Under the pieces are notes generated by a model that searched no databases, had not been told where the DNA came from, and saw nothing but the letters and a program-made list of their open reading frames with translations. Position numbers and translations under genes: made by a program. From NCBI RefSeq assembly GCF_022808815.1, contig NZ_JAKZLC010000003.1:124001-188000 (forward strand): a stretch of DNA of 64,000 bases, read 5' to 3'. Positions 44,730-60,181 of this stretch are shown here, piece by piece; within the stretch, counting starts at the first letter, position 1, and every line of letters begins with the position of its first letter. The DNA is from Geothrix paludis. GTDB lineage: Bacteria > Acidobacteriota > Holophagae > Holophagales > Holophagaceae.

Positions 44730-46478
44730 ATGGCTCTCCTCGTCCCCCATCCCACGCAACTCCTGTTCTTCACGGGAAAGGGGGGCGTCGGCAAGACCTC
44801 CGCGGCCTGCAGCACGGCCATCGCGCTGGCGGACGCGGGGAAGCGGGTCCTGCTCGTCAGCACGGATCCGGCCTCCAACCTGGATGAGGTGTTGGGCACG
44901 GAGCTGTCTGGCGAGCCTCAGTCCGTTTCCGGGGTGCCGGGCCTCCGGGCCCTGAACATCGATCCGGAGGAGACGGCCCGTGCCTACCGGGAGGGCATCA
45001 TCGCACCCGTCCGGGGCCTGCTCCCCGAGGCGGTCGTCGCCAGCATGGAGGAGCAGCTCTCGGGGGCCTGCACCACGGAGATCGCGGCCTTCGATGTGTT
45101 CTCCCGGCTGCTGGGCGATCCGGCCCGGACGGCGGACTTCGACCACATCCTCTTCGACACGGCGCCCACGGGCCACACCCTGCGGCTGCTGGAGCTTCCC
45201 GCGGCCTGGTCCACCTTCATCGAGACCAACGTCGGCGGGAACTCGTGCCTCGGGCCGCTGTCGGGGCTCTCGGCCCAGCGGGGGCTCTACGAGGCCGCCC
45301 AGGCCGCGCTCCGGGACACCGGCCGCACCACCCTCGTGCTGGTGGCCCGGCCCGATGACGCATCCCTGCGGGAAGCGGAGCGCACCCGGATCGAGCTGGC
45401 CCACCTGGGCCTCCGGCAGGTCCACCTGATCCTCAACGGCCTCTTCCGGGCGATGGGTTCTTCGGATCTCATCGCCGCGGAGTTGCAGGCCCGGGAAGCC
45501 CAGGCCCTGGATCACCTCCCCGAGGGGCTCCGGGAGCTGCCCCGCACGACCGTCCCCCTGCTGCCCTACGGCCTCGTCGGCCTGGGGGCCCTGCGGAGCA
45601 TGGGCGGCGAGAAAGGTTCGCCGCGTATCGAAGCGGCCGGCGAGGCGGTCGACCCGTCCCGGTTCGACACGCTGGAAGCCCTGGCGGATCGCCTGGTGGC
45701 TCAGGGCAAGGGCGTGGTGATGACCATGGGCAAGGGCGGCGTGGGGAAGACCACCCTGGCGGCCCGCCTGGCCCTGCGGCTGGCCGGCGCAGGCTTCCCG
45801 GTCACGCTCACCACCACGGACCCGGCGGCCCATGTGGAGGCGGCCGCCCCCGTGCGGCCGCCCACGCTGCGCGTGACCCGCATCGATCCCGAGCGGGTGA
45901 CGGAACGGTACCGGGCGGAGGTCCTGGCCGCGGCGGCGCCGGACCTGGACGCCCCGGGGCGCGCGCTCCTGGAGGAGGATCTGCGCTCGCCCTGCACGGA
46001 GGAGATCGCCGTCTTCCGGGCCTTCGCGGAGACCGTGGCCCAGGGCCGGGAGGGCTTCGTCATCATCGACACCGCCCCCACAGGACACACCCTGCTCCTG
46101 CTGGACGCGGCGGAGGCCTACCACCGGGAGGTGCTGCGCCAGTCCAGCGATGCGCCGGAAGCCGTGAGACAGCTCCTGCCGCGCCTTCGCGATGCGGCCT
46201 TCACGCGCATCCTGCTCGTCACCCTTCCCGAGGCCACGCCCATCCACGAGGCCATGCAGCTGGAAGGGGACCTCGCCCGCGCCGGGATCCGTCCCTTCGC
46301 CTGGGTGGTGAACCAGAGCCTCACGCCCCTGGCGGTCACGGATCCCGTCCTGAAAGCGCGCCGGGCCCAGGAGGCCCGCTTCCTGAACGAGCTCCTCCGC
46401 CACACCTCCTCCATCGTGCTCGAGCCCCTCGCCTGCGTTCCGGCAGACCCCGTTCTTTCCCCTGGAGTCCACCCATGA
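44730..46478 (+). CDS. arsA: Arsenite-transporting ATPase ArsA
   Basis: The protein has 582 residues in two homologous halves, like E. coli ArsA (583). P-loops are GKGGVGKTS (A1) and GKGGVGKTT (A2). Metal-site cysteines are kept: [22 protein letters not shown] and [10 protein letters not shown] (equivalents of C113, C172 and C422). [12 protein letters not shown] signals occur in both halves. It energises As(III) efflux; here its partner is probably the Acr3 permease. Overlaps acr3 by four bases. Confidence 0.94.
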
Positions 46479-47578
46479 CAGCGCCCATGACCGCGCCCAA
46501 GCGCCTCGCCTTCCTGGACCGCTTCCTCACCCTGTGGATCTTCCTCGCCATGGGGCTGGGCATCCTGCTGGGCTACGCCGTCCCGGGCTTCAACCGGGCG
46601 GTGAACAGCCTCAACGTGGGGACCACCAGCCTGCCCATCGCCGCGGGACTCATCCTGATGATGTACCCCGTGCTGGCGAAGGTGCACTTCGAGGAGATGG
46701 GGAAGGTGTTCCTGAACCGGAAGGTCCTGACCTTCTCCCTGATCCAGAACTGGGTGGCGGGGCCGGTGGTCATGTTCCTCCTGGCGGTGCTCTTCCTCCG
46801 CGACAAGCCCGAATACATGGCGGGCCTCATCCTCGTGGGGCTCGCGCGGTGCATTGCCATGGTCATCGTCTGGAACGACCTGGCCTGCGGGAACCGCGAG
46901 TACTGCGCGGGGCTCGTGGCCTTCAACGCCGTCTTCCAGATGCTGCTCTACTCCGTCTACGCGTGGTTCTTCCTCACGGTGGCCCCGGGCTGGCTGGGCC
47001 TGCACGGGGTGGCCATCCATATCACCATGGGCGAGATCGCCAAGACGGTCCTCATCTACCTGGGCATCCCGTTCGCGGCGGGGCTCATCACCCGCCTGGT
47101 CCTGGTCCGGATGAAGGGCCACGAGTGGTACGACCACCGCTTCGTGCCGGCCATCAGCCCCATCACCCTGGTATCGCTGCTGTTCACCATCGTGGTGATG
47201 TTCAGCCTGAAGGGCGACAGCATCGTCCGGGTCCCCTTCGATGTCGCGCGGGTGGCCCTGCCCCTGCTGCTCTACTTCCTCATCATGTTCTTCGTCTCGT
47301 TCTGGATCAGCCACCGGCTTGGCGCCCCCTACGGCCACACGGCCACGCTCTCCTTCACGGCCGCCTCCAACGACTTCGAGCTGGCCATCGCCGTGGCCGT
47401 CGGCACCTTCGGCATCGCCCACGGGGCGGCTTTCGCGGCCGTCATCGGGCCGCTTGTGGAGGTTCCCGTGCTCATCGGCCTGGTCAACGTGGCCCTCTGG
47501 CTGCGGCGGAAGTGGTACGCCGCCGGCGCGGAGGAAGTCGCAGCCACCGGATCCGCGGCGGATTCTCACGGGAGGTGA
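46475..47578 (+). CDS. acr3: Acr3-family arsenite efflux permease
   Basis: The protein has 367 residues with ten membrane helices. It has the Acr3 core [17 protein letters not shown] with the essential Cys in the fourth helix, and [19 protein letters not shown] in the late region. It exports As(III). Acr3 is unusual as the direct partner of ArsA, where ArsB is classic, though Acr3-ArsA pairs are known. Confidence 0.94.
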
Positions 47579-47581
47579 ACC

Positions 47582-47995
47582 ATGGACATCTTCGAGGGCA
47601 GGGGCATGGTGATCGCGGGGCTGCGCTTCCTGGCGCCGAAGGACGCGCTGGCCGCGCTGAACGAAGGCGCGATCCTGGTGGACCTTCGCCTCGACGAGCT
47701 GGCGGAGATGAAGGCCTTCCAGGTGGCCGAGACCATCCGCATCCCCCATGAGGAGCTGGCCGGCCTGCTGTCCGAGCTGCCCACGGACCGGCCCCTGCTG
47801 CTGGCCGACAGCGCCGGCGTCTACACCAAGGAGGCCGCGCACCTGCTGCTGGACCACGGCTTCACCGAGGTGGCCTGTCTCAACGGCGGCATGCTCCTCT
47901 GGGACCAGGAGGGCTGGCCCGTGACGACCGACGCCGCCGCGCTCCTCCACGGCCAGTGCCCCTGCGTGCTGCGCCCCCGGAAAGGCCACCGATGA
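47582..47995 (+). CDS. Rhodanese-like protein without catalytic cysteine
   Basis: The protein has 137 residues. The rhodanese fold is clear: ILVDLRLDELAEMKAF, RIPHEELAGLL and ACLNGGMLLWDQEGWPV. The active-site loop ADSAGVYT (75-82) has Asp at the position of the catalytic Cys. A new CxC (C126, C128 in GQCPCVL) sits at the C-terminus. It should not be a normal sulfurtransferase. A metal-sensing or binding role in the operon is possible. ATG at 47582 follows a GGAGG site. Confidence 0.78.
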   Translation: MDIFEGRGMVIAGLRFLAPKDALAALNEGAILVDLRLDELAEMKAFQVAETIRIPHEELAGLLSELPTDRPLLLADSAGVYTKEAAHLLLDHGFTEVACLNGGMLLWDQEGWPVTTDAAALLHGQCPCVLRPRKGHR

Positions 47996-48474
47996 TCCGC
48001 CCCGTCCTGCCCACGGATGCCCCGGCCCTGGCCGAGATCTACAACCCCTACATCCGGGACACCATCATCACCTTCGAGGAGCAGCCCGTGACCGCCGAGG
48101 AGATGGGCGCCCGCATCGCCAAGGTGACGGCCACCTACCCCTGGCTTGTGTGGGAGGAGGACGGCCGCGTGCTCGGCTACGCCTACGCCTCCACCTGGCG
48201 GACCCGGCACGCCTACCGCTTCGCCGCGGAGACCACCATCTACCTGGACCGCGGCCACCACGGGAAGGGTCGGGGCGCCGCGCTCTACCAGACGCTGCTG
48301 GACGAGCTCCGGAAGCGGGGCTTCCATTCCGCCCTGGGCTGCCTGAGCCTGCCCAACGAGCCCAGCGTGCGGCTCCACGAGAAGCTCGGCTTCAAGAAGG
48401 TGGGCCACATGACCGAGGCCGGCTGGAAGTTTGGCGCCTGGGTGGATGTGGGCTTCTGGGAACTGCTCCTGTGA
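47992..48474 (+). CDS. GNAT N-acetyltransferase, PAT/ArsN-like
   Basis: The protein has 160 residues. It resembles phosphinothricin acetyltransferase: [54 protein letters not shown] and [18 protein letters not shown]. In ars operons such proteins are ArsN1 enzymes that acetylate the antibiotic arsinothricin; the location supports that role, but phosphinothricin-type activity cannot be excluded. It overlaps the rhodanese gene by four bases. Confidence 0.78.
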
Positions 48475-48484
48475 CGGAGACCGC

Positions 48485-48904
48485 ATGACCTCGATCCTCT
48501 TCCTCTGCGTGGCCAACAGCGCCCGGTCCCAGCTGGGCGAAGGCCTGGCGCGCCAGCTGTTCCCGGGCTTCCGTGTCCAGAGCGCCGGCAGCTGGCCCAG
48601 CCGCGTGAACCCATACGCCATCGAGGTCCTGGCGGAGCGGGGCATCGACGCCTCGGCCCACACCTCGAAGCCCGTGTCGGACATCGACCCGGCTTCCGTG
48701 GACCTGGTCATCACCCTCTGCGCTGAGGAGGTGTGTCCCGCCTTCCTGGGCAAGGCCGAGCGCCTGCACTGGCCCATCCCCGATCCCGCCAGCGACGATC
48801 CTTCGCTCACGCCCGAGGACCTGCGTGCCCGCTTCCGCGCCGCCCGGGACGAGATCGCCCGACGGCTGGAAGCCTTGGGGCGCGAGCAGGGTTGGGTTTC
48901 ATGA
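48485..48904 (+). CDS. arsC: Arsenate reductase ArsC, low-molecular-weight phosphatase type
   Basis: The protein has 139 residues. The P-loop is C8-V-A-N-S-A-R14, followed by the shuttle cysteines C79 and C84 ([10 protein letters not shown]) and the acid in WPIPDP. It reduces As(V) to As(III) using thioredoxin. A mini-thioredoxin gene is nearby in the island. The start is ATG at 48485, ten bases after the acetyltransferase stop. Confidence 0.93.
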
Positions 48905-48975
48905 ATTTCGAAAAAAATCGAAATTAGGCCTTGCGCCCTATTTCGATAAATCTAGAATTAAGTCAGGAGGAGACC
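48904..48975 (+). promoter_or_regulatory. ars promoter 2 and ArsR operators
   Basis: AATTTCGA-N6-TCGAAATT (48904-48925) contains TTTCG-N8-CGAAA, identical in spacing to the site ahead of arsR1. A candidate promoter follows: -35 TTGCGC (48931-48936), 16-base spacer, -10 TAGAAT (48953-48958). A degenerate second site (TTTCG-N8-AGAAT) overlaps the -10. AGGAGGA precedes the start. Confidence 0.65.
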
Positions 48976-49311
48976 ATGACCGGGCGTGTGGAACAGGCGG
49001 CGGAGCGGCTGAAGGCCCTCGGGCATCCCCTCCGTCTGTCCATTCTGCGCCGCCTGGTGCAGGGCCCCGAGGCTGGGACACCCGCCGGGGAGCTGCAGAC
49101 GCGCCTGGACATCCCGGCCTCCACCCTCAGCCATCACCTGGCCACCCTCGCCGACGCCGGCCTGGTGCTGGTGGCCCGGGAAGGCACCACACTCCGCTAT
49201 CGCGCCGACTACGGCACCCTGCGGGCCCTGACTGAATACCTCTGGCAGGACTGCTGCGCCGGCGGCGCGGCGGACGACCCCCAACCTTCGCCCTGCTGCC
49301 GCAGGGACTGA
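48976..49311 (+). CDS. arsR: Second ArsR-family regulator (ArsR2)
   Basis: The protein has 111 residues. It has the winged helix (ALGHPLRLSILRRLVQGPEAGTP to LSHHLATLADAGLV) without the ELCVCEV box; cysteine pairs at the end (WQDCCAGG, SPCCRRD) probably form the As(III) site, as in other ArsR types. It likely controls the arsM-arsP part. Start chosen by AGGAGGA. Confidence 0.9.
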   Translation: MTGRVEQAAERLKALGHPLRLSILRRLVQGPEAGTPAGELQTRLDIPASTLSHHLATLADAGLVLVAREGTTLRYRADYGTLRALTEYLWQDCCAGGAADDPQPSPCCRRD

Positions 49312-49378
49312 CCTTCCACCGTCCTGGGATGTGGATGCCTCCGGTGTCCCAGGTGATCTCTATCCGAAAGGCGCCACC

Positions 49379-50239
49379 ATGAAACCCGAGACCCTCAAAT
49401 CCGCTGTCCGCGACCGCTATGCCGGCTTCGTGACGAAAAATCAAAGCTGCTGCGGGCCTTCCGCTTCCTGCTGCGCGCCGGGTGACGCCAGCCTGGACGT
49501 GGGCTACGACCCGAAAGACCTCGCCGCCGTGCCCGAAGGCGCCAACCTGGGCCTGGGCTGCGGCAACCCCGTGGCCCTGGCAGGCCTGAAGCCCGGCGAG
49601 ACCGTGCTGGATCTGGGCTCGGGCGCGGGCTTCGACGCCTTCCTCGCCGCCCAGCGCGTGGGACCCGAAGGCCGCGTCATCGGCGTGGACATGACACCCG
49701 AGATGATCGAACGCGCCACGTCCCTGGCCCGGAAGCACGGCTACGGGAACGTCGAGTTCCGCCGGGGCGACATCGAGGCCCTGCCCGTGGACGACGCCAG
49801 CGTGGACGTGATCCTCTCCAACTGCGTGGTGAACCTCGCCCCGGACAAGGCCAAGGTCTTCCGCGAGGCCTTCCGTGTGCTCAAGCCCGGCGGGCGCCTC
49901 CAGGTGTCCGACCTCGTGCTGGCCCGGCCCCTGCCCGAGGCGCTGCTTCAGGATCTGGACGTCTACGCGGCCTGCATCTCCGGCGCGATGTTGAAGGACG
50001 ACTACCTGGCCGCCATCCGCGCCGCGGGCTTCCAGGGCGTGACCGTGGCTTCCGAGCGGCGCTTCGGCCTGGCGGAACTCTCGCCGGAGCTGATGGAGCT
50101 GGCGAAGCAGCGCTATCCGGGCATGAGCCCGGAGGAGCTGGAACAGCTGGCCGGCTCGGTGCTGAGCGTCCAGGTGGAAGCCACCAAGGCGGCCACAGCG
50201 GTGGATCGCGCCTGCTGCGCGCCCGGCTGCTGCGGGTGA
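49379..50239 (+). CDS. arsM: Arsenite S-adenosylmethionine methyltransferase ArsM
   Basis: The protein has 286 residues. The SAM fold is VLDLGSGAGFDAFLAAQ, then GVDMTPEM and SNCVVNL. Arsenic-binding cysteines are seen in SCCGPSASCC, LGLGCGNP, SNCVVNLA and CISGAM. The tail ends with CCAPGCCG. It makes methylated arsenicals. The downstream arsP could export the trivalent products. Confidence 0.93.
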   Translation: MKPETLKSAVRDRYAGFVTKNQSCCGPSASCCAPGDASLDVGYDPKDLAAVPEGANLGLGCGNPVALAGLKPGETVLDLGSGAGFDAFLAAQRVGPEGRVIGVDMTPEMIERATSLARKHGYGNVEFRRGDIEALPVDDASVDVILSNCVVNLAPDKAKVFREAFRVLKPGGRLQVSDLVLARPLPEALLQDLDVYAACISGAMLKDDYLAAIRAAGFQGVTVASERRFGLAELSPELMELAKQRYPGMSPEELEQLAGSVLSVQVEATKAATAVDRACCAPGCCG

Positions 50240-50246
50240 GGATGCC

Positions 50247-51320
50247 ATGACCGACACTTCGAAAAGCTGTGCCTGCGCCGCGCCGGTCCCTGCCGCAGGG
50301 CCCGGATTCTGGAGGTCGGGAGGGTGGTTGCTGGCCGCCCTCCCGCTCTGGATCGGCCTCTACCTCCTGCTCCATCCCGCCGCCGACTGGCTGGCCTTCC
50401 GGGTCTTCGGCCTGGCGCCAGGCAGCCGCCTGGGTGAGGCCGTGGCCTTCTTCGCCTACGACGCGCCCAAGGTGCTCATGCTCCTGGCGGCCGTGGTGCT
50501 GGGCGTGAGCTTCGTGCAGACCTTCCTCAGCGCGGAGCGCACCCGCGACCTGCTGGCCAAGCGCACGGGCGCCTGGAGCAACCTGCTGGCCTCCCTGCTG
50601 GGCATCGCCACGCCCTTCTGCTCCTGCTCGGCGGTGCCGCTTTTCATCGGCTTCGTGCGGGTGGGTGTACCCCTGGGCGCCACCTTCAGCTTCCTGGTGT
50701 CGGCCCCCATGGTGAACGAGGTGGCGCTGTTCCTGCTGTGGGGCCTCTTCGGCTGGCGCATCGCCCTCCTCTACACCGCGACGGGCCTGGCGGTGGCCTT
50801 CGTCTCCGGCTGGATCCTCGGAAAGCTCCGCATGGAGCGGCACCTGGAGCCCTGGGTGATGGAGATCCCCTTCGAGGCCTCCAAGGCGTCGGACGCTTCT
50901 CTGGGCTTCGCGCAGCGCCTGGACCTGGCGCTCCAGGCCACGAAGGACATTGTCGGCAAGGTCTGGCCCTATATTCTCGCTGGCATCGCCGTCGGCGCCT
51001 TCCTGCACGGCTACGTGCCCGCCGAGCTGATGGCCCGCGTCATGGGCAAGTCCGCCTGGTGGAGCGTGCCCCTGGCGGTCCTCATCGGCGTGCCCCTGTA
51101 TTCCAACGCGGCCGGCATCATCCCCATCGTCCAGGTGCTGCTGGCCAAGGGCGCGGCGCTGGGTACAGCCCTCGCCTTCATGATGGCGGTGACGGGGCTG
51201 TCCCTTCCCGAGACCGTCATCCTCCGCAAGGTGCTCAAGCCCCGGCTCCTGGCGGTCTTCCTCGGCACCGTGGCGGCGGGCATCGTGCTCGTCGGGTTCC
51301 TGTTCAACCTCGTGATGTAG
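50247..51320 (+). CDS. arsP: ArsP-like organoarsenical permease (COG0701)
   Basis: The protein has 357 residues with about eight helices. It carries TPFCSCSAVPLFIGF, the signature of the COG0701/DUF318 permeases to which ArsP belongs. A short Cys-rich N-terminus (SCACAAP) precedes the first helix. Placed between arsM and the mini-thioredoxin, it is likely to export methyl-As(III), though COG0701 members have other substrates. Confidence 0.8.
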   Translation: MTDTSKSCACAAPVPAAGPGFWRSGGWLLAALPLWIGLYLLLHPAADWLAFRVFGLAPGSRLGEAVAFFAYDAPKVLMLLAAVVLGVSFVQTFLSAERTRDLLAKRTGAWSNLLASLLGIATPFCSCSAVPLFIGFVRVGVPLGATFSFLVSAPMVNEVALFLLWGLFGWRIALLYTATGLAVAFVSGWILGKLRMERHLEPWVMEIPFEASKASDASLGFAQRLDLALQATKDIVGKVWPYILAGIAVGAFLHGYVPAELMARVMGKSAWWSVPLAVLIGVPLYSNAAGIIPIVQVLLAKGAALGTALAFMMAVTGLSLPETVILRKVLKPRLLAVFLGTVAAGIVLVGFLFNLVM

Positions 51321-51328
51321 GAGAGGCC

Positions 51329-51559
51329 ATGAAGATCGAAGTGCTGGGCAGCGGCTGCGCCAAGTGCAAGCTGCTGGCGGAGCGGACGGAGGAAGCCGCG
51401 AAGGGGTTGGGCCTGGACTTCACGCTGGTGAAGGTCACGGAGTATCCGGACATCGTGGCCCGGGGCGTGATGTCCACGCCGGGGCTGGTGGTGGATGGCG
51501 TGGTGAAGAGCCAGGGCCACGTGCCCACGGTGGCGGCCATCAAGGACCTGCTGCGGTAG
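51329..51559 (+). CDS. Mini-thioredoxin (redox-active disulfide protein)
   Basis: The protein has 76 residues. It has a glutaredoxin-like fold with CxxC in LGSGCAKCKLL and the cis-Pro segment GVMSTPGLVVDG, like TM0996/MTH895 proteins. It may reduce ArsC or keep ArsM and ArsP thiols reduced. It is nine bases after arsP and closes the island. Confidence 0.88.
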   Translation: MKIEVLGSGCAKCKLLAERTEEAAKGLGLDFTLVKVTEYPDIVARGVMSTPGLVVDGVVKSQGHVPTVAAIKDLLR

Positions 51560-51586: not shown

Positions 51587-52633
51587 ATGCGCATCGGCAT
51601 CCTGGGCTATGGCCGCTTCGGGCGCGCGCTGGGCGAGCTGCTCCGCGAGGCCGGCCATGGCTATCGGGCCTGGGATCCCGCCGTGGAGGTCCCCGCCGAG
51701 CGCCGGGCCGCCGGCCTCCGGGACCTGGTGGAGGCGGAGGCCCTGGTGCTGGCGGTGCCCGTGGCCGCCCAGGTCGCGGCCCTGGCGAGCCTGCGGCCCC
51801 ACCTGCGGCCAGACCAGCTGGTCTTCGATGTGGGCAGCGTGAAGTCGGGCCCCTGCGCCCTGATGGACGCCCAGCTGGGCGCGGCCATCCCCCACGCGGG
51901 GACGCATCCTCTCTTCGGGCCCGTGAGCCTGGCCCGGGCGGAGCGGCCCCTGCGCGTGGTGCTCTGCCCCTCGATCCACCACCCCGCTGCCGCCGATCGG
52001 GTGCAGGCCCTGTTCGAGAGCTTGGGCTGCGAAGTGCTGCGCCAGAGCCCCGAGGACCACGACCGCGTGATGGCCACCACCCACGCCCTCACCTTCTTCA
52101 TCGCCAAGGGCCTGCTGGCCGTGGGCGCCGGGGCCGAGCTGCCCTTCACGCCGCCCTCCTTCCACGCCATCGCCCGCACCCTGGAATCCGTGCGCGAGGA
52201 TGCCGGCCACCTCTTCGCCGCGCTGCAGAACCAGAACCCCTTCGCCAAGGGAGCCCGCGAAGGACTGCTGGAGGCCCTCTCCGCCATCCACCAGACCCTG
52301 GCGGAAGCCGTGGCGGAAGGTGCGGACGAGCAGCAGTTGGCCATCCCCAGCCTGGGGGAGCGCTCCCCCATCCTCCAGGAGACCCGCGACCACATCGACG
52401 CCCTGGACCAGGAACTGGTGGCTCTGCTGGCCCGCCGCACCGAGCTGGTGCTCCGCGCCGGCCGCGCCAAGGCCGAGCTGGGCCTCCCCGTGCACGACCC
52501 TGACCGGGAAGCCTCGCAGCTCCAGGCCCGCCGCGCCTGGGCCCAGGAGGCCCATCTGGACGCGCAGGGTGTGGAGGACGTCTTCCGGGCCGTGCTGCGG
52601 GCGTCGCGGTCGGCTCAGGGCGGCAGGGGCTGA
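51587..52633 (+). CDS. tyrA: Prephenate dehydrogenase-chorismate mutase fusion
   Basis: The protein has 348 residues. The N-terminal prephenate dehydrogenase domain (about 1-255) has the NAD motif ILGYGRFGRALGE and GTHPLFGP. The C-terminal AroQ-type chorismate mutase (about 262-340) has ETRDHIDALDQELVALLARRTELV. The order is the reverse of enterobacterial TyrA (mutase first). It acts in tyrosine synthesis. Its 3' end overlaps the convergent sigma factor gene by 19 bases. Confidence 0.88.
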   Translation: MRIGILGYGRFGRALGELLREAGHGYRAWDPAVEVPAERRAAGLRDLVEAEALVLAVPVAAQVAALASLRPHLRPDQLVFDVGSVKSGPCALMDAQLGAAIPHAGTHPLFGPVSLARAERPLRVVLCPSIHHPAAADRVQALFESLGCEVLRQSPEDHDRVMATTHALTFFIAKGLLAVGAGAELPFTPPSFHAIARTLESVREDAGHLFAALQNQNPFAKGAREGLLEALSAIHQTLAEAVAEGADEQQLAIPSLGERSPILQETRDHIDALDQELVALLARRTELVLRAGRAKAELGLPVHDPDREASQLQARRAWAQEAHLDAQGVEDVFRAVLRASRSAQGGRG

Positions 52634-53670
52634 CCGGCCGCCGCCGGTTCCGGCCACGCCACCACCAGAGCCGCGCCGGGCTGGGCTCCGGGTCGGGATT
52701 CCCAGGTGATGCGGAGCTCCAGGGGCCAGGCCTCGGCCAGGCCGGGGGCTTCAAGGATCTGGAGGGCCTTGCCCTCGGCATCGGGGCCCCGGAGGTCCAG
52801 GTGCTGCCAGCCCGCGGCGGTCCGGAGCCACAGCATGGGGCGCGTCCCGGCCGGCGGCGCAGGGAAGCGGGACAGGGTGAGCACCGCGATCCCGGCACCG
52901 GGGGCGCTGCGGAAGGCGGCGTGGAGGCCGGCCTCCCCGGCGGTCGTTCCGGGCGGCGCCAGGCGCAGAACCTTCGTCTGGCTGTCCGCCAGCAGGTGGA
53001 GGGCCCTTCCATGCTGGCGGTCCCCTTCCGCATGGCGGCGGTAGATCCAGGCTCCCGTGCCGGTCAGGGCCACGGCCAGGACGGCCACCAGGCCGCCCAG
53101 GTGCCGCTCCAGTGACTTCAGGCCGCTACGGATCCGTGTCTTCGCGGTGCCCAGGGGCACCTGGAGCGTCCGGGCCACCTCTTCGTGGGTGAGGTCGGCG
53201 AAGAAGGCCAGTCGCAGCGCGGTGCGCTGGGATTCCGGCAGGGCGGCCAGCGCTTCCGACACGGCGTCCCGCTGGTACTCCCGCCAGAGCGTTTCGTCCG
53301 GCAGGGGCTCCTCCGCCGACAGGGCGGCCTGCTCGAGCAGAGGATCGCCGGCGGACTGGGGCCGCCGGGCGCGGGAGCGCAGCTCGTCCAGCATCCGGTG
53401 GCGGCTGATGCCAAGCAGCCACGAGCGGAAGGAGCCCCGCGCCGGGTCGAACTCGCCGGCCTTCCGCCACACGGCGAGGAAGGTGTCCTGCACGACCTCC
53501 TCAGCCGCGGGGCGGTCCAGGGAGCGGCAGGCCAGGTGGAACACCAGGGGCGCGTAGCGCCGGTGCAGCTGCTGGAGTGCCTCCTCCCGGCCTTCCCGCA
53601 CCTGCTGAAGAAGGCGCGCGTCCTCCTCGCCGAGGGGGCTGGCAGGGGAAGGGGGGACAAGGGCGGTCAT
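52615..53670 (-). CDS. ECF sigma factor with fused transmembrane RskA-like domain
   Basis: The protein has 351 residues. Sigma region 2 (about 20-85; FRSWLLGISRHRMLDELR) and region 4 (about 125-185; LPESQRTALRLAFFADLTHEEVA) are followed by a membrane helix (GGLVAVLAVALTGTGAWIY) and an outer domain (about 225-345; LRLAPPGTTAGEAGLHAA, MLWLRTAAGWQHLDL) like the C-terminal half of RskA anti-sigma-K proteins. A zinc anti-sigma domain is absent. This would tether the sigma factor to the membrane. ATG at 53670 is preceded by GGAG. Confidence 0.8.
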   Translation of the reverse strand: MTALVPPSPASPLGEEDARLLQQVREGREEALQQLHRRYAPLVFHLACRSLDRPAAEEVVQDTFLAVWRKAGEFDPARGSFRSWLLGISRHRMLDELRSRARRPQSAGDPLLEQAALSAEEPLPDETLWREYQRDAVSEALAALPESQRTALRLAFFADLTHEEVARTLQVPLGTAKTRIRSGLKSLERHLGGLVAVLAVALTGTGAWIYRRHAEGDRQHGRALHLLADSQTKVLRLAPPGTTAGEAGLHAAFRSAPGAGIAVLTLSRFPAPPAGTRPMLWLRTAAGWQHLDLRGPDAEGKALQILEAPGLAEAWPLELRITWESRPGAQPGAALVVAWPEPAAAGQPLPP

Positions 53671-53732: not shown

Positions 53733-54212
53733 TCAAAGCCGGGTCTCCGGGGGCACGGTGCTGGCGGTGTCCACCAGCAGCAGCCCCTGCGGGTCGGTCT
53801 CCTTCACGTCCAGGTGCCGCAGGTGGCGCTTGGCCGGGCCCTGGGTGACCTCGCCGTGGGCGTCGTACTCGCTGCCGTGGCAGGGGCAGGCGAAGCCGGC
53901 GGCGCCTTCCGTATGGACGATGCAGCCGAGGTGCGTGCAGATGCCGGACAGGGCGTAGATCCCACGCTCGTCCGCCATGAGGAAGAAGGCTCCGAGTCGC
54001 CGGTAGTCCAGCACCTTGCCGGGCGTCAGGTCCGGCCGCGTGGCCTCGGTGAGCTTCAGCGGGTGGGGATCGGGGGGCAGCTTCGGCGGGGCGGGAGGCT
54101 GCGCCCCGCCCGGGAGGCCCGCGCTCGCCAGCAGGAGGCCGAGGGTGGCGCAGAAGGCCCGTCGCGGGTGGACCTGATCGAAGGCTGGACCATCGGGGGG
54201 CTTCGTCGTCAT
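53733..54212 (-). CDS. Rieske [2Fe-2S] protein with signal sequence
   Basis: The protein has 159 residues. Rieske ligands are C-T-H-L-G-C and C-P-C-H-G-S. The N-terminus has a Tat/Sec-like signal (RRAFCATLGLLLASAGLPGGA). It probably transfers electrons at the periplasmic membrane face. It overlaps the phosphoesterase gene by four bases and precedes the sigma factor gene in the same direction. Confidence 0.88.
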   Translation of the reverse strand: MTTKPPDGPAFDQVHPRRAFCATLGLLLASAGLPGGAQPPAPPKLPPDPHPLKLTEATRPDLTPGKVLDYRRLGAFFLMADERGIYALSGICTHLGCIVHTEGAAGFACPCHGSEYDAHGEVTQGPAKRHLRHLDVKETDPQGLLLVDTASTVPPETRL

Positions 54213-55150
54213 GCTGGCGCCCCAGCGCCCTTCAGCGAGTCGGCTAGGGGCTTCTCGGCCAGCACCAGGAGTCCATCGCTGCCTTTGAGCTGGGGCTGGG
54301 TGTGGATCTGCCGGAAGCCGAGGTCCCGGTAGGGATGGGCAGGGTCCCAGGGCAGGGGCGCCCGCTTGGGGGCGGAGCCGGGCGCGGGCAGGGGGAAGAT
54401 GAGCGAGGTGGCCGCGTGGTGCTGGATGTGGCCCGTGCGGTGGTGGTGCTCCTGGTGGATGTGGCCGTAGAACACCGTCACGAAGCGATGGTCCTTCAGC
54501 AGGTCCAGGGCCTTCTGCCCGTCCAGGGTGGCCCAGTCCCAGTCGGGATAGAGGTCGAAGAGGGGCCGGTGCGCGAAGATCACCAGGGGCTCGTCCTTGG
54601 GCGTGTGGCTCAGCTCGCCCGCCAGCCACTTCAGCTGCTCGGCGCCGAGGACGGAGCCCACCTGGGAGACGTTGTCCAGGGCGATGAAGTTCACGCCCCG
54701 GTGCGTGAAGGCGTAGTGCGAGATTCCGAAGGCCTCCCGGTAGGCTTCGCCGCGGTCCTCCTGAGCGTCATGCTCCCCCGGCAGGTAGCGGATCTGCCGG
54801 ACCCGCAGCCGGCCGGCCTGCTGCTTGAATTCCGCCATGCGCTTGCGGCGGAGTTGCGGATCGTCGGTGTCGTGGGTGAGGTCGCCCGTGAAGATGACGA
54901 AGTCCGGCTGGGGATCGAGCGCATTCACCGTATCGATGGCCTTGCCCAGGGTGCCGGTCGCATCGGGATTGACCTTGGGCCCCTCGAAGCCCCAGTGGGT
55001 GTCCGACAGCTGCACCCAGTAGAAGTCCGAGGCTTTGGCTGCGCCCGTCGGACCCAGGGCCTCCGCGAAACCTGGCAGGCCCGTGGCGAACACGGCCCCG
55101 CCGATGCCCATGACCTTCAGGAACGTGAGCCGATCCATCTGCGATCCCAT
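54209..55150 (-). CDS. Calcineurin-like metallophosphoesterase
   Basis: The protein has 313 residues. Metal ligands: LSDTHWG, TGDLTHD, PGEHDAQ (a GEHD variant of GNHD), FAHRPL and YGHIHQEHH. A hydrophobic N-terminal signal lacks the twin Arg. It is probably secreted. ATG at 55150 follows GGAGG. It heads the phosphoesterase-Rieske-sigma run. Confidence 0.85.
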   Translation of the reverse strand: MGSQMDRLTFLKVMGIGGAVFATGLPGFAEALGPTGAAKASDFYWVQLSDTHWGFEGPKVNPDATGTLGKAIDTVNALDPQPDFVIFTGDLTHDTDDPQLRRKRMAEFKQQAGRLRVRQIRYLPGEHDAQEDRGEAYREAFGISHYAFTHRGVNFIALDNVSQVGSVLGAEQLKWLAGELSHTPKDEPLVIFAHRPLFDLYPDWDWATLDGQKALDLLKDHRFVTVFYGHIHQEHHHRTGHIQHHAATSLIFPLPAPGSAPKRAPLPWDPAHPYRDLGFRQIHTQPQLKGSDGLLVLAEKPLADSLKGAGAPA

Positions 55151-55263
55151 GCACCCCCCTCCCGGGCCGGGCCCGGCGCTGTCCTCCTCTCGGGGGGACA
55201 TAAGAGGAATACGCCGGTCCTGGGGGATTGGATGTCGGGTCGCGAGATCGATCTCGATCCGGT

Positions 55264-56310: not shown

Positions 56311-56889
56311 TTACTTGCCGAAGCGCTTGGAGACTTCGCTCCACTTGATGTTCTCGACGAAGGCCTCGAGGTACTTCGCGCGGGCGGTGCCGTAGTCGAC
56401 CATGAACGCGTGCTCCCAGCTGTCCAGCACCACGAGCAGGTCCTGCTCGATGGGCAGGCCCAGGTGGTGCTCGGCCACGAAGTAGGTGTGCAGCTTGCCG
56501 TCGCGGCGGTTGCGGGTGAGCAGGGCCCAGCCGGGACCGCCCAGGGCGCAGGCCTTGAGGTCGGCCAGCACCTTGTCCTTGCCGCCCACGGCGTCCAGGG
56601 CGGCCTTGAGGCCGGCGCTGATGTCGCTGTCGGCGCCCAGGTTCTCGAAGTAGAGCTCGTGCAGGAAGGAGCCGTTGAAGGCCACGGCCTCGCGGCGCTT
56701 CAGCTCGCTGTACTCGTTGTAGGAGTAGTTGGGCTTGGTGTTGTCGGCGGTCGCCAAGCGCTCCTCGATCTCGTTCAGCTTGGTGACGTAGCCCTTGTAG
56801 AGGCCGAAGTGCTGGTCCAGCTGGGAATCGCTGAGCCCCTTCAGGGCGCCGCCCTTCAGGTGGTCGTAGTTCTTGGCGGTGTAGGCCAT
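56311..56889 (-). CDS. sod: Fe/Mn superoxide dismutase
   Basis: The protein has 192 residues. Metal-ligand regions are DQHFGLYKGYV, FNGSFLHELYFENL and VLDSWEHAFMVDYG. The Gly/Gln residues that separate Fe from Mn types are not decisive here. It detoxifies superoxide in the cytoplasm, near dps and rubrerythrin. Its 3' end is duplicated downstream. Confidence 0.9.
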   Translation of the reverse strand: MAYTAKNYDHLKGGALKGLSDSQLDQHFGLYKGYVTKLNEIEERLATADNTKPNYSYNEYSELKRREAVAFNGSFLHELYFENLGADSDISAGLKAALDAVGGKDKVLADLKACALGGPGWALLTRNRRDGKLHTYFVAEHHLGLPIEQDLLVVLDSWEHAFMVDYGTARAKYLEAFVENIKWSEVSKRFGK

Positions 56890-56969
56890 GGGTGTCTCCT
56901 TGGCTGCGCGACGCGCGGATGAGTAGTTTACTTAAAAAGTCGGAAATTGGATGAAACAGGCACAATGTT

Positions 56970-57151
56970 CAGGTGCGGGTCCGGTATCGGACGCGGTGGC
57001 CGGGCTTGGCCCGGACCCCGCATGGGGGTGCACGAGGGGGGACAGGGGCCCCGGATCCGCGAGCACATGCGAGCGGGAACACGCTCCAGCGGAGCGTGCG
57101 ATAACCGGGGAGGACGCGAAGCGTCCGGGCGGTCCCCCCTCGTTTAGATCA
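56970..57151 (-). repeat. Multi-hairpin element abutting the dps stop (copy F)
   Basis: An 11-base inverted repeat (CGAGGGGGGAC, 57033-57043; GTCCCCCCTCG, 57132-57142) encloses hairpins CACGCTCC/GGAGCGTG (57080-57098) and GGACGC/GCGTCC (57112-57126). CCGGGC/GCCCGG lies beyond. It starts at the dps stop (TGATCTAAACGAGG). It is related in design to elements A-E but only distantly in sequence. Confidence 0.6.
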
Positions 57152-57592
57152 ACCCAGCATCTCCCTCAGGAACCAGGCCTCTTTCTGATGGACCTGCACG
57201 AAGCGGGTGAGCAGGTCGGCGGTGCCGGGATCGCCGGCGTCGTTGGCGAGCTCGATGCCCTCGTGCATGAGCGACACGGTGACCTCCTCGTTGGCCAGGG
57301 CCTCCTTCAGCATGGCCTCGGGATCCAGGCGGGCGGAGGGGTTGGAGATGGCGGCCTTGGTCTGGGCCTCGATCTGGGCCGGGGCGTGGATCGGCACGCC
57401 GCCCATCATGCGGATCCGCTCCGCCAGCTCGTCCACGGTGCCGTCGGCGGCGGTGTAGAGGTCCTCGAAGCGCAGGTGGTAGTCGCGGAAGTGGGGGCCG
57501 GTGACAGTCCAGTGGTAGCGCTTGGCATTGAGGGCCAGCACGAAGGCAGTGGCCAGCTCGGCGTTCAGGTGATCGATGACGGAACGGTTCAT
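57149..57592 (-). CDS. dps: Dps ferritin-like DNA-protection protein
   Basis: The protein has 147 residues. It has the dinuclear ferroxidase motif ALNAKRYHWTVTGPHFRDYHLRFEDLYT with conserved His, Asp and Glu, and a C-terminal TADLLTRFVQVHQKEAWFLREM helix. It oxidises and stores iron with peroxide. It is followed by element F and sod. Confidence 0.93.
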   Translation of the reverse strand: MNRSVIDHLNAELATAFVLALNAKRYHWTVTGPHFRDYHLRFEDLYTAADGTVDELAERIRMMGGVPIHAPAQIEAQTKAAISNPSARLDPEAMLKEALANEEVTVSLMHEGIELANDAGDPGTADLLTRFVQVHQKEAWFLREMLG

Positions 57593-57601
57593 GGCTTCTC
57601 C

Positions 57602-58165
57602 TCAGGAAGGCCAGGACGTCCAGGCGGCCGGCGCGGGCCAGCGGCCGGGAAGCCCGGCGTGGGTGGAGACGAGGGCGGCGATGGGGCGGCCGTCCGGAAT
57701 GAGGTAGCGCAGGGCCAGCACGGAGGGCAGCCGATCCTCCGGGCCGGCGGCGCCGCGATCCACGGAGGGCGCGACGAGGGATCCATCCGCCAGCTCCAGC
57801 GCCAGCTGGTCCGGGAACGTGTGCAGGGCCGCCAGGTGGCGGTCCCGCACGCCGTCGGGGAAGCCCAGCATGAGCGTGGCGGCCAGGCTCATGCCCCCCG
57901 GCTCGCGCCGGGGCGCCAGCACCGCGAAGGAGGCGCGGGCCTCGGCCAGGTCCTCCGCCGGGGCGGAGTCCAGGGTCATGCCTTCGGCCCAGAGGGTCTC
58001 GACCACCTGGTCCTCCACGCTTTCCGCCGTTTCGGGCTGGAAGCTGACCCCCTCGGCGAGGTCGAGCCGCAGGGCGGCCTGGCGGGCCAGGAAGGCCTGC
58101 CGGGCCTGGAAGCGTGCGCGCTCGGTGGCGGGGTCGAAGGAAGGGGCCACCAGGAACTCAGACAT
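57602..58165 (-). CDS. Hypothetical protein between rubrerythrin and dps (DUF3501-like?)
   Basis: The protein has 187 residues. The pattern FQPETAESVEDQVVETLWAEG, then FAVLAPRREPGGMSLAATLML, faintly resembles DUF3501, a family often encoded near rubrerythrin; the resemblance is weak. It overlaps the rubrerythrin gene by eight bases and lies nine bases from dps, so it is probably a member of the same oxidative-stress operon. Confidence 0.55.
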   Translation of the reverse strand: MSEFLVAPSFDPATERARFQARQAFLARQAALRLDLAEGVSFQPETAESVEDQVVETLWAEGMTLDSAPAEDLAEARASFAVLAPRREPGGMSLAATLMLGFPDGVRDRHLAALHTFPDQLALELADGSLVAPSVDRGAAGPEDRLPSVLALRYLIPDGRPIAALVSTHAGLPGRWPAPAAWTSWPS

Positions 58166-58631
58166 GCTGGGCGATGTCGGCGGCGGGCTGGGCGAAGGCG
58201 GGCTTGGCGCCGGCCTGCAGCTTGGTCAGGGCCTCCTGGAAGCGGCCGGCGTGGAAGCGCTCGACCTTGGCCAGGGTCTCGAACCAGGCGGCGATCTCGG
58301 GGTAGCCCTCTTCCTTGGCCAGGCGGGCGAACTCGGGATACATGTCCGTGTACTCGTAGGTCTCGCCGGCCACGGCGGACTTCAGGTTGGTGAGCGTGTC
58401 GCCCAGGGGCAGGCCCGTGGCGGGATCGCCGGCCTTCTCCGCCAGGAACATCAGGTGCCTCAGGGCGTGGCCCGTCTCGCCGTCGGCGCTGTGCTTGAAG
58501 AGGTCTGCCACTTCCTTCAGGCCTTCCTTCTCGGCCACCTGGGCCATCCAGGTGTAGCGGCGGTTCGCCTGGCTCTCGCCGGCGAAGGCGGCCTTGAGGT
58601 TCTGGTGGGTCTTGGAATCGGTGAAGGACAT
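58158..58631 (-). CDS. Rubrerythrin (diiron domain only)
   Basis: The protein has 157 residues. The diiron carboxylates are in AFAGESQANRRYTWMAQVAEKEG, HSADGETGHALRHL and AVAGETYEYTDMYPEFA, AKVERFHAGRF. The C-terminal rubredoxin domain is missing. It reduces hydrogen peroxide using an unknown electron donor. It heads the rubrerythrin-DUF-dps run. Confidence 0.9.
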   Translation of the reverse strand: MSFTDSKTHQNLKAAFAGESQANRRYTWMAQVAEKEGLKEVADLFKHSADGETGHALRHLMFLAEKAGDPATGLPLGDTLTNLKSAVAGETYEYTDMYPEFARLAKEEGYPEIAAWFETLAKVERFHAGRFQEALTKLQAGAKPAFAQPAADIAQHV

Positions 58632-59296: not shown

Positions 59297-60181
59297 TCAG
59301 TTCGGGAAGGCGGCGGCCACGATGCGTCCCACCTTCGCCAGCACGGCGTTGCGGTCCTTCATGGGGGCCCGGGAGCCGGTGTAGTAGGCGGCCACCAGGA
59401 TCGGCGCCCGGCCCGGCGGGCGCAAGATGGCCACGTCGTTCACGGTGCCGCGCGCCCCGGTGCCGGTCTTGTCGCCGATGGCCCAGATGACTGGGAGGCC
59501 CGCCCGGAGGCGATCCCCGCCGGTGAGGCAGCCCCGCATCCAGCCCTCCAGGCGCTGGCAGGAGGCCGGCTCGAGAGCTCCGCCCAGCAGCATGGCCTTC
59601 AGGGAGTCCACCATGGCCGCGGGGCTGGTGGTGTCCCGGGGGTCGCCGGGGATGGCGGTGTTGAGGGCGGGCTCGGTGCGGTCCAGCCGCGTCACGGGAT
59701 CACCCAGGCCGCGTGCGAAGGCTGTCACCTCGGCGGGACCGCCCAGGGCCTGGAGCAGCAGGTTGGCGGCGGTGTTGTCGCTGGCCTCCACGGCGGCGGC
59801 GCAGAGCTCTGCCACGGTCAGGCGCCCCTCGGCCACGCGGGCCGCCGTGACGGGCGCGTAGTCCAGCAGGTCCGCCTTCGTGTAGGTGATGGGCCGGTCC
59901 AGGCGCTCCCGGCCCCGCTCCACCCGGGCGAGCACCGCCCCCGCCAGCAGGACCTTGAAGGTGCTGCACAGGGGGAACCGCTCCTCGCCGCGGTGGGCGA
60001 TGCGGCGGCCCGTGCCCGTGTCCAGCGCCACCACGCCCAGACGCCCGCCCGTGCGGGCCTCCAGGGCGGCGAGGCGGGCCGGGGCTGGAGCTTGGGCCGG
60101 GGTTCGGGCCGAAGCTGGGGTTGGGGGTGCGGCCTGGAGGGCCTGGATCAGGAGAAGGGCGGTGCACAGGATCCGGCTCAT
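59297..60181 (-). CDS. Class A beta-lactamase
   Basis: The protein has 294 residues with a signal peptide (LLLIQALQAAP). The catalytic set is complete: S73-T-F-K76, S134-D-N136, E170 in EPALN, K238-T-G240. C72 precedes the active Ser, but the partner Cys of carbapenemases after KTG is not present (KTGTGARG). A Pro/Ala linker leads the domain. It is presumably a resident enzyme that hydrolyses penicillins or cephalosporins; spectrum cannot be predicted. No mobile elements flank it. Confidence 0.9.
   Translation of the reverse strand: MSRILCTALLLIQALQAAPPTPASARTPAQAPAPARLAALEARTGGRLGVVALDTGTGRRIAHRGEERFPLCSTFKVLLAGAVLARVERGRERLDRPITYTKADLLDYAPVTAARVAEGRLTVAELCAAAVEASDNTAANLLLQALGGPAEVTAFARGLGDPVTRLDRTEPALNTAIPGDPRDTTSPAAMVDSLKAMLLGGALEPASCQRLEGWMRGCLTGGDRLRAGLPVIWAIGDKTGTGARGTVNDVAILRPPGRAPILVAAYYTGSRAPMKDRNAVLAKVGRIVAAAFPN

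Follow-up and report, generated by a model that had tools for sequence, protein, structure and literature searches.

A SigK/RskA-like ECF sigma factor fused to a predicted membrane helix and an RskA_C-related outer domain in Geothrix

How might a sigma factor be controlled when its own chain continues into a predicted membrane helix and an outer domain related to that of an anti-sigma factor, with no anti-sigma domain present? A gene of this kind lies in the 64,000-nucleotide stretch of Geothrix paludis DNA analyzed here (the window). An earlier note had read it as ECF regions 2 and 4 followed, in one frame, by a membrane helix and an RskA-like outer domain without a zinc anti-sigma domain, and had suggested that proteolysis may free the sigma factor and that the response may include the adjacent Rieske and phosphoesterase genes. 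It called for domain searches, structural prediction, and a search for homologous fusions, and it named as risks to its reading a sequencing error joining two genes and a C-terminal region unrelated to RskA.

The gene occupies positions 52615–53670 of the minus strand, exactly as delimited earlier, and forms a single open frame from ATG to stop that encodes 351 residues with no internal stops. Pfam identifies sigma-70 region 2 at residues 35–103 (53362–53568, minus strand; PF04542, Sigma70_r2, 69.4 bits) and region 4 at residues 135–187 (53110–53268, minus strand; PF08281, Sigma70_r4_2, 44.5 bits), and the ECF-type model TIGR02937 scores 100.4 bits against a cut-off of 42.9. The protein is thus an ECF sigma factor of the sigma-70 family, containing regions 2 and 4 only. 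A single membrane helix is predicted at residues 191–213 (53032–53100, minus strand), leaving a gap of about three residues after region 4 (187 to about 191). In all 16 proteins from the genus, the most hydrophobic 19-residue segment directly follows region 4, with a mean Kyte-Doolittle hydropathy of 1.62–2.46 as against 0.64–1.12 for the runner-up segment elsewhere in the chain. The remainder, residues 214–340 (52651–53031, minus strand), comprises a linker and an outer β-domain.

This outer domain is related to RskA_C (PF10099), an assignment that is secure across the homologs. The window protein alone scores 17.7 bits from residue 195, below the curated Pfam cut-off of 29.4; we nevertheless accept its membership because 15 of the 18 aligned fusion members match at E ≤ 0.01 and three divergent members exceed the cut-off (L016, 35.8 bits; L092, 41.0 bits; L194, 62.5 bits). 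The second risk named in the earlier note, a C-terminal region foreign to RskA, is thereby set aside. Pfam finds no zinc finger (zf-HC2) or other anti-sigma domain in the window protein, whose only cysteine lies within sigma region 2, so that no sign of a hidden zinc anti-sigma domain is seen in the fusion chain. The N-terminal sigma-binding domain of an RskA-type anti-sigma factor is also absent, since the distance between the end of region 4 and the start of the helix leaves no room for it. The domain layout first read from the sequence is therefore borne out by Pfam, hydropathy, and the homologs.

Structural prediction supports part of this picture. Modeled alone, the outer β-domain is predicted with a pLDDT of 84 and a pTM of 0.79, better than the full-length model, which was built from 16 sequences (pLDDT 74, pTM 0.41). 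In the latter, one helix spanning residues 173–228 encompasses the recognition helix, the membrane helix, and the linker, and is followed by an eight-stranded β-domain. Continuity of this helix from region 4 into the membrane is only suggestive, because the pLDDT falls to 57–64 around residues 191–210. The modeled sigma part matches ECF sigma structures, including that of SigK-RskA (4nqw). Comparison of the outer-domain model with the PDB by Foldseek yields no match at E ≤ 0.001 (best 0.054), and neither a PDB sequence search with the outer-domain profile nor a search of an anti-phage library returns a match. The top rows from VIA-align are sandwiches of the Cu,Zn superoxide dismutase type (Z 8.2–9.4 over 94–101 residues at approximately 3 Å), a modeled likeness barely above the level that VIA-align calls common, which we treat as a lead from which no function follows.

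The search for homologous fusions recovered at least 19: 16 among 47 Geothrix genomes, one in another genus of the same family, and two in genera of another Acidobacteriota family. These totals are lower bounds, as the large searches scored the best candidates per genome and the phylum was sampled. A search with the protein itself found the full fusion in 13 of 37 Geothrix genomes (its own and 36 others), and three more were added from loci that were read, giving 16 carriers. The adjoining phosphoesterase likewise occurs in 16 of the 47 Geothrix genomes, and every one of these carries the fusion. Among the 31 Geothrix genomes without the phosphoesterase, 24 and a further five gave no fusion match; the two left out, G062 and G064, are 64% and 58% complete. 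Outside the genus, the fusion is present in one frame in G419 (another genus of the family) and G314 (a genus of another family), and a search of 148 genomes from the class of G314 added G867. In 349 genomes from the phylum of G425, a set containing no positive control, no fusion was found at E ≤ 1e-40 among the best five candidates per genome, a negative that carries little weight.

In the window, the fusion is the last of three genes on the minus strand. It is preceded by a Rieske 2Fe-2S protein (53733–54212, minus strand; PF00355, 46 bits) with a Tat-like start and the motifs CTHLGC and CPCHGS, and this gene overlaps by four bases a calcineurin-like phosphoesterase (54209–55150, minus strand; PF00149, 52.6 bits) with an export-signal-like start, whose ATG at 55150 was set from alignments. 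All 15 loci compared (13 distinct) show the order phosphoesterase-Rieske-sigma, coordinates give the same order in the window genome, G063, and G068, and it holds in all 16 fusion-bearing Geothrix genomes. G419 preserves this order with an inserted DUF2231-like membrane protein (24 bits, below the cut-off of 26.4), and in G314 a cupredoxin replaces the Rieske protein between the phosphoesterase and the fusion. The locus in G867 (L195) is an exception to the operon pattern and counts against our main proposal: there the fusion, whose RskA_C score (62.5 bits) is higher than that of any other member, adjoins an upstream DoxX gene (59.3 bits), with neither the phosphoesterase in the 9 kb read nor the promoter-like element described below. 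The phosphoesterase and Rieske partners are probably exported, given the Tat-like start of the window Rieske protein and the twin-arginine-like starts of phosphoesterase relatives, where 8 of the 11 readable sequences from other Acidobacteriota carry a DRRxFLK-like start; the phosphoesterase of the window no longer carries the second arginine of this signal.

Several further features surround the operon. The convergent neighbor at 51587–52633 (plus strand) encodes a prephenate dehydrogenase with a C-terminal chorismate mutase domain (Pfam), and the 3′ ends of this gene and the sigma gene share 19 bases. Beyond it, an arsenic-resistance-like run at 44730–51559 (plus strand) includes ArsA-, ACR3-, ArsC-, ArsR-, and ArsM-like genes by reading and an ArsP_1 permease by Pfam, parts of which adjoin the fusion in several other Geothrix loci. 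The other flank holds an oxidative-stress-like cluster at 56311–58631 (SodB, Dps, and rubrerythrin by reading) that is conserved in several Geothrix loci; in two of the loci (L035:1188–1283 and L037:2205–2300) the SodB-like gene has its final 32 codons repeated just 3′ of the full copy, a partial tandem duplication. An open reading frame at 59297–60181 resembles a class A β-lactamase by eye.

A promoter-like element, CATCC-N14-GRYGTAT, lies at 55209–55234 (minus strand), approximately 60–85 bases 5′ of the phosphoesterase start. Its two parts keep a constant length of 26 bases amid variable surrounding sequence in every one of the 17 aligned rows, which represent 15 distinct loci and include G419 and G314; the G419 site has GATCC, which the exact pattern does not capture. 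Across the 47 Geothrix genomes there are 50 exact matches, 16 of them just before the phosphoesterase (in 16 of 16 fusion genomes) and 34 elsewhere, as compared with two matches when the pattern is read backwards; the 34 count against our main proposal. The only exact match in this genome is the one at the operon head, and a large regulon is unsupported at this stringency. A slightly stricter pattern with one mismatch allowed gives two matches in the window against 0.09 expected, of which only the operon site is exact. Near the RskA-paired sigma factors of other lineages, a looser pattern occurs upstream in 3 of 21 cases, on the reverse strand in 1 of 21, and downstream in 2 of 21, a distribution that is uninformative. 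Because the element heads the operon in all 16 fusion-bearing genomes and has its sole exact match in this genome there, the fused sigma factor most likely drives its own operon. Together with the conserved gene order, the element also lends good support to the suggestion that the Rieske protein and the phosphoesterase would be part of the response.

These features point to a mechanism in which a SigK-type ECF sigma factor, joined at its natural C-terminus to an RskA-type membrane helix and outer domain with loss of the anti-sigma domain, would keep its sigma part in the cytoplasm and its RskA_C part outside. Since scarcely any chain separates the recognition helix of region 4 from the membrane helix, tethering is most likely in itself what keeps the sigma factor from engaging RNA polymerase. 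The outer domain would respond to a signal, which from the gene content might be a redox or envelope condition, and a site-1 protease would then trim that domain, after which an RseP-like site-2 protease would cut the membrane helix and free the sigma factor, by analogy with IutY and RskA. Once freed, it would recognize CATCC-N14-GRYGTAT and transcribe the phosphoesterase, the Rieske protein, and itself, a positive feedback loop confined essentially to its own locus. Taken together, a SigK/RskA-derived fusion that is silenced by its tether, released by site-1 and RseP-like proteases, and set within an autoregulated operon is the account we favor, with confidence somewhat better than even.

The membrane location of the fusion in the cell and its proteolytic release are predictions that draw on the hydrophobic helix, an RseP-like protease in this genome (HEGGH and LDGGH motifs), and the analogy with IutY. 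Release by stepwise proteolysis is suggested by this protease together with two precedents. IutY of Pseudomonas putida (ECF243, FecI/FecR-type) is described as a cytosolic sigma factor linked through one membrane segment to a FecR-like domain in the periplasm; Prc is reported to trim it and RseP to cleave it, and truncation to its sigma part to make it constitutive (PMC9249621, PMC5411451). RskA is reported to be cleaved by Rip1 in M. tuberculosis (PMC7509140). The protease itself is weak evidence for proteolysis, because enzymes of the RseP type are near-universal, with one in each of the 14 control genomes.

Regulators of the ToxR and CadC type act from within the membrane, and the fusion might do likewise, with the outer domain shifting its oligomeric state or conformation so that the tethered sigma factor recruits RNA polymerase uncut. 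A factor that does not diffuse would suit the single exact target site in this genome, and a Gly-Thr motif of the kind at which some anti-sigma factors are reported to cleave themselves (PMC7509140) is not conserved, since the position following the invariant G275 varies. However, the roughly three residues between region 4 and the helix leave little room for contacts with promoter and polymerase, and the analog IutY is reported to require both Prc and RseP (PMC5411451). We consider activity from the membrane unlikely. A silencer other than the tether, such as one of the two operon partners or an anti-sigma factor encoded elsewhere, would leave the RskA_C part mainly as an anchor or sensor platform, and it would fit the constant adjacency of the partner genes in Geothrix and their presence alongside the fusion in all 16 genomes. 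The partners look exported, however, and so would have no direct contact with the sigma part in the cytoplasm, and an RskA acting in trans finds no candidate, as this genome holds no second RskA_C protein at E ≤ 0.05; we regard a separate silencer as slightly less probable still.

The C-terminal extension could also be a degenerate remnant of stop-codon loss or of an anti-sigma deletion, with no regulatory role. In four close pairs, dN/dS is 0.14–0.22 for the sigma part, 0.12–0.51 for the outer domain, and 0.46–0.94 for the membrane helix, a pattern that fits a retained outer domain and a helix conserved for its hydrophobicity rather than for particular residues. While the helix values and the window protein’s own sub-threshold RskA_C score would be compatible with decay, the constraint on the outer domain, the single frame that stays open in 19 genomes, and the three homologs above the RskA_C cut-off make a remnant quite improbable. 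The remaining risk raised in the earlier note, a sequencing or assembly error (or a chance frame) joining two genes, is refuted by the identical single-frame layout in independent assemblies of 19 genomes (16 of the genus, named Geothrix strains among them, and three from further genera) and by the outer-domain dN/dS, and its probability is negligible.

The favored account of a tethered, proteolytically released fusion also implies an origin from a SigK-RskA pair. The SigK subfamily model is the second-best NCBIfam match of the sigma domain (129.6 bits, under its cut-off of 226). In a tree without G867, the 18 fusions of the alignment group together as a single clade (support 0.976). Of the 20 unfused close sigma relatives whose loci were read, 15 are directly followed by an RskA homolog at E ≤ 1e-10; of the other five, L109 has a weak RskA match (1e-4) and L098, L102, L110, and L111 have none that is convincing. 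The node joining the fusions with the RskA-paired sigma factors has a support of only 0.46, so the proposed origin rests on domain content and neighbors more than on the tree. In 16 unfused RskA-paired sigma factors, 15–28 residues separate the lysine of the conserved GT-x-K motif from the protein end, and about 14 separate it from the start of the membrane helix in four fusions (L001, L016, L092, and L093), which places the join at the natural C-terminal end of the sigma factor with the anti-sigma domain gone. An unfused related sigma factor (46–47% identity) is found at L073:4645–5313 (G001) and in L074 (G027), beside amine-oxidase-, lipocalin-, and DUF1365-like genes by reading, a setting that we take to resemble the singlet-oxygen RpoE/ChrR cluster.

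The phosphoesterase also occurs apart from the fusion. Its relatives are present in 41 of 396 genomes of the phylum, ten with the fusion and 31 without, and we read one locus each from 14 of the latter (the complete set of 11 at E ≤ 1e-120, plus three with weaker matches). In 12 of the 14, an ECF sigma gene of another clade diverges from the phosphoesterase and is followed by a gene whose product combines a membrane helix with an N-terminal motif resembling a zinc finger; Pfam confirms the zinc finger in L146 and L153, the two of these anti-sigma-like proteins tested, and it was recognized by eye in the rest. The two other loci are L150, with no sigma gene in the 1.1 kb available upstream, and L159, with a same-direction sigma gene and no anti-sigma gene. 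A cupredoxin lies 3′ of the phosphoesterase in 11 of the 14. The membrane proteins of L146–L158 share an outer motif, SSDRHTVKPWF or close variants, with no Pfam outer-domain match in the two tested. These divergent pairs resemble the Geothrix locus in adjoining a phosphoesterase of that family, with a cupredoxin after it in most cases, but they differ in their sigma factors, 12 of which, lying beside the phosphoesterase in other lineages, form a separate clade (support 0.962), and in being two proteins of divergent orientation with a zinc finger (in the two tested). The phosphoesterase and redox protein thus look like an ECF-associated module in their own right, in which the membrane-fused sigma factor would fill the regulatory place in Geothrix. 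An uncharacterized and probably exported phosphoesterase/redox module would then be accompanied by two unrelated ECF systems in Acidobacteriota.

We also put forward, more tentatively and as a reading that falls a little short of an even chance, that all of these features belong together: an anti-sigma-free, one-protein transmembrane switch, silenced purely by the recognition helix continuing into the membrane, in which one cut would both unlock the sigma factor and release it onto a single autoregulated operon, and which would have arisen once from a SigK-RskA pair, independently of IutY, to replace an unrelated conventional ECF pair controlling the same phosphoesterase/redox module. If so, an anti-sigma domain would be dispensable, membrane tethering of a sigma factor would be enough for control, and such tethering would have evolved at least twice, in IutY from FecI/FecR and in the Geothrix fusion from SigK/RskA. 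Made up of a single protein, a single predicted promoter, and a small operon, the locus would be an unusually compact signaling device and offers a clean, testable case.

The general idea of a membrane-tethered, proteolyzed sigma factor is not new, because IutY already works in this way, and fused, proteolysis-activated ECF sigma factors listed in PMC8999054 include IutY/ECF243, ECF36, ECF48, ECF52, ECF53, and ECF270. Literature searches, whose scope did not extend to the reference ECF re-classification (Nucleic Acids Res. 2021), turned up no published sigma-RskA_C fusion. ECF48, ECF52 (SCO4117), and ECF53 share with the Geothrix protein an ECF sigma factor whose C-terminal extension bears membrane helices and an outer part, and proteolysis has been proposed for them (PMC8999054, PMC5826349); as described there, they differ in having a zinc-finger domain between the sigma factor and the membrane (for ECF52, PMC5826349) and other outer domains, and they are reported from Actinobacteria. 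SigK-RskA (ECF19) pairs resemble the fusion in their sigma domain, whose subfamily model the Geothrix sigma part matches well though under the cut-off, and in their membrane helix with RskA_C, but they divide these between two proteins, with an N-terminal sigma-binding domain in RskA that the single Geothrix protein lacks. IutY is described as having the same overall plan, with a cytosolic ECF sigma factor, a single membrane segment, and an anti-sigma-derived periplasmic domain in one chain and no separate anti-sigma gene. It differs in its FecR-like outer domain, its TonB-type outer-membrane siderophore receptor partner, and its iron-uptake target (PMC9249621, PMC5411451), whereas the Geothrix locus features neither a FecR-like outer domain nor a TonB-dependent transducer gene and combines RskA_C with phosphoesterase and Rieske or copper protein partners. 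The Geothrix fusion therefore differs from these systems in its RskA_C outer domain without any anti-sigma domain, its sigma lineage, its partners, and its phylum, and is apparently a second IutY-type one-protein membrane sigma factor, independent of IutY.
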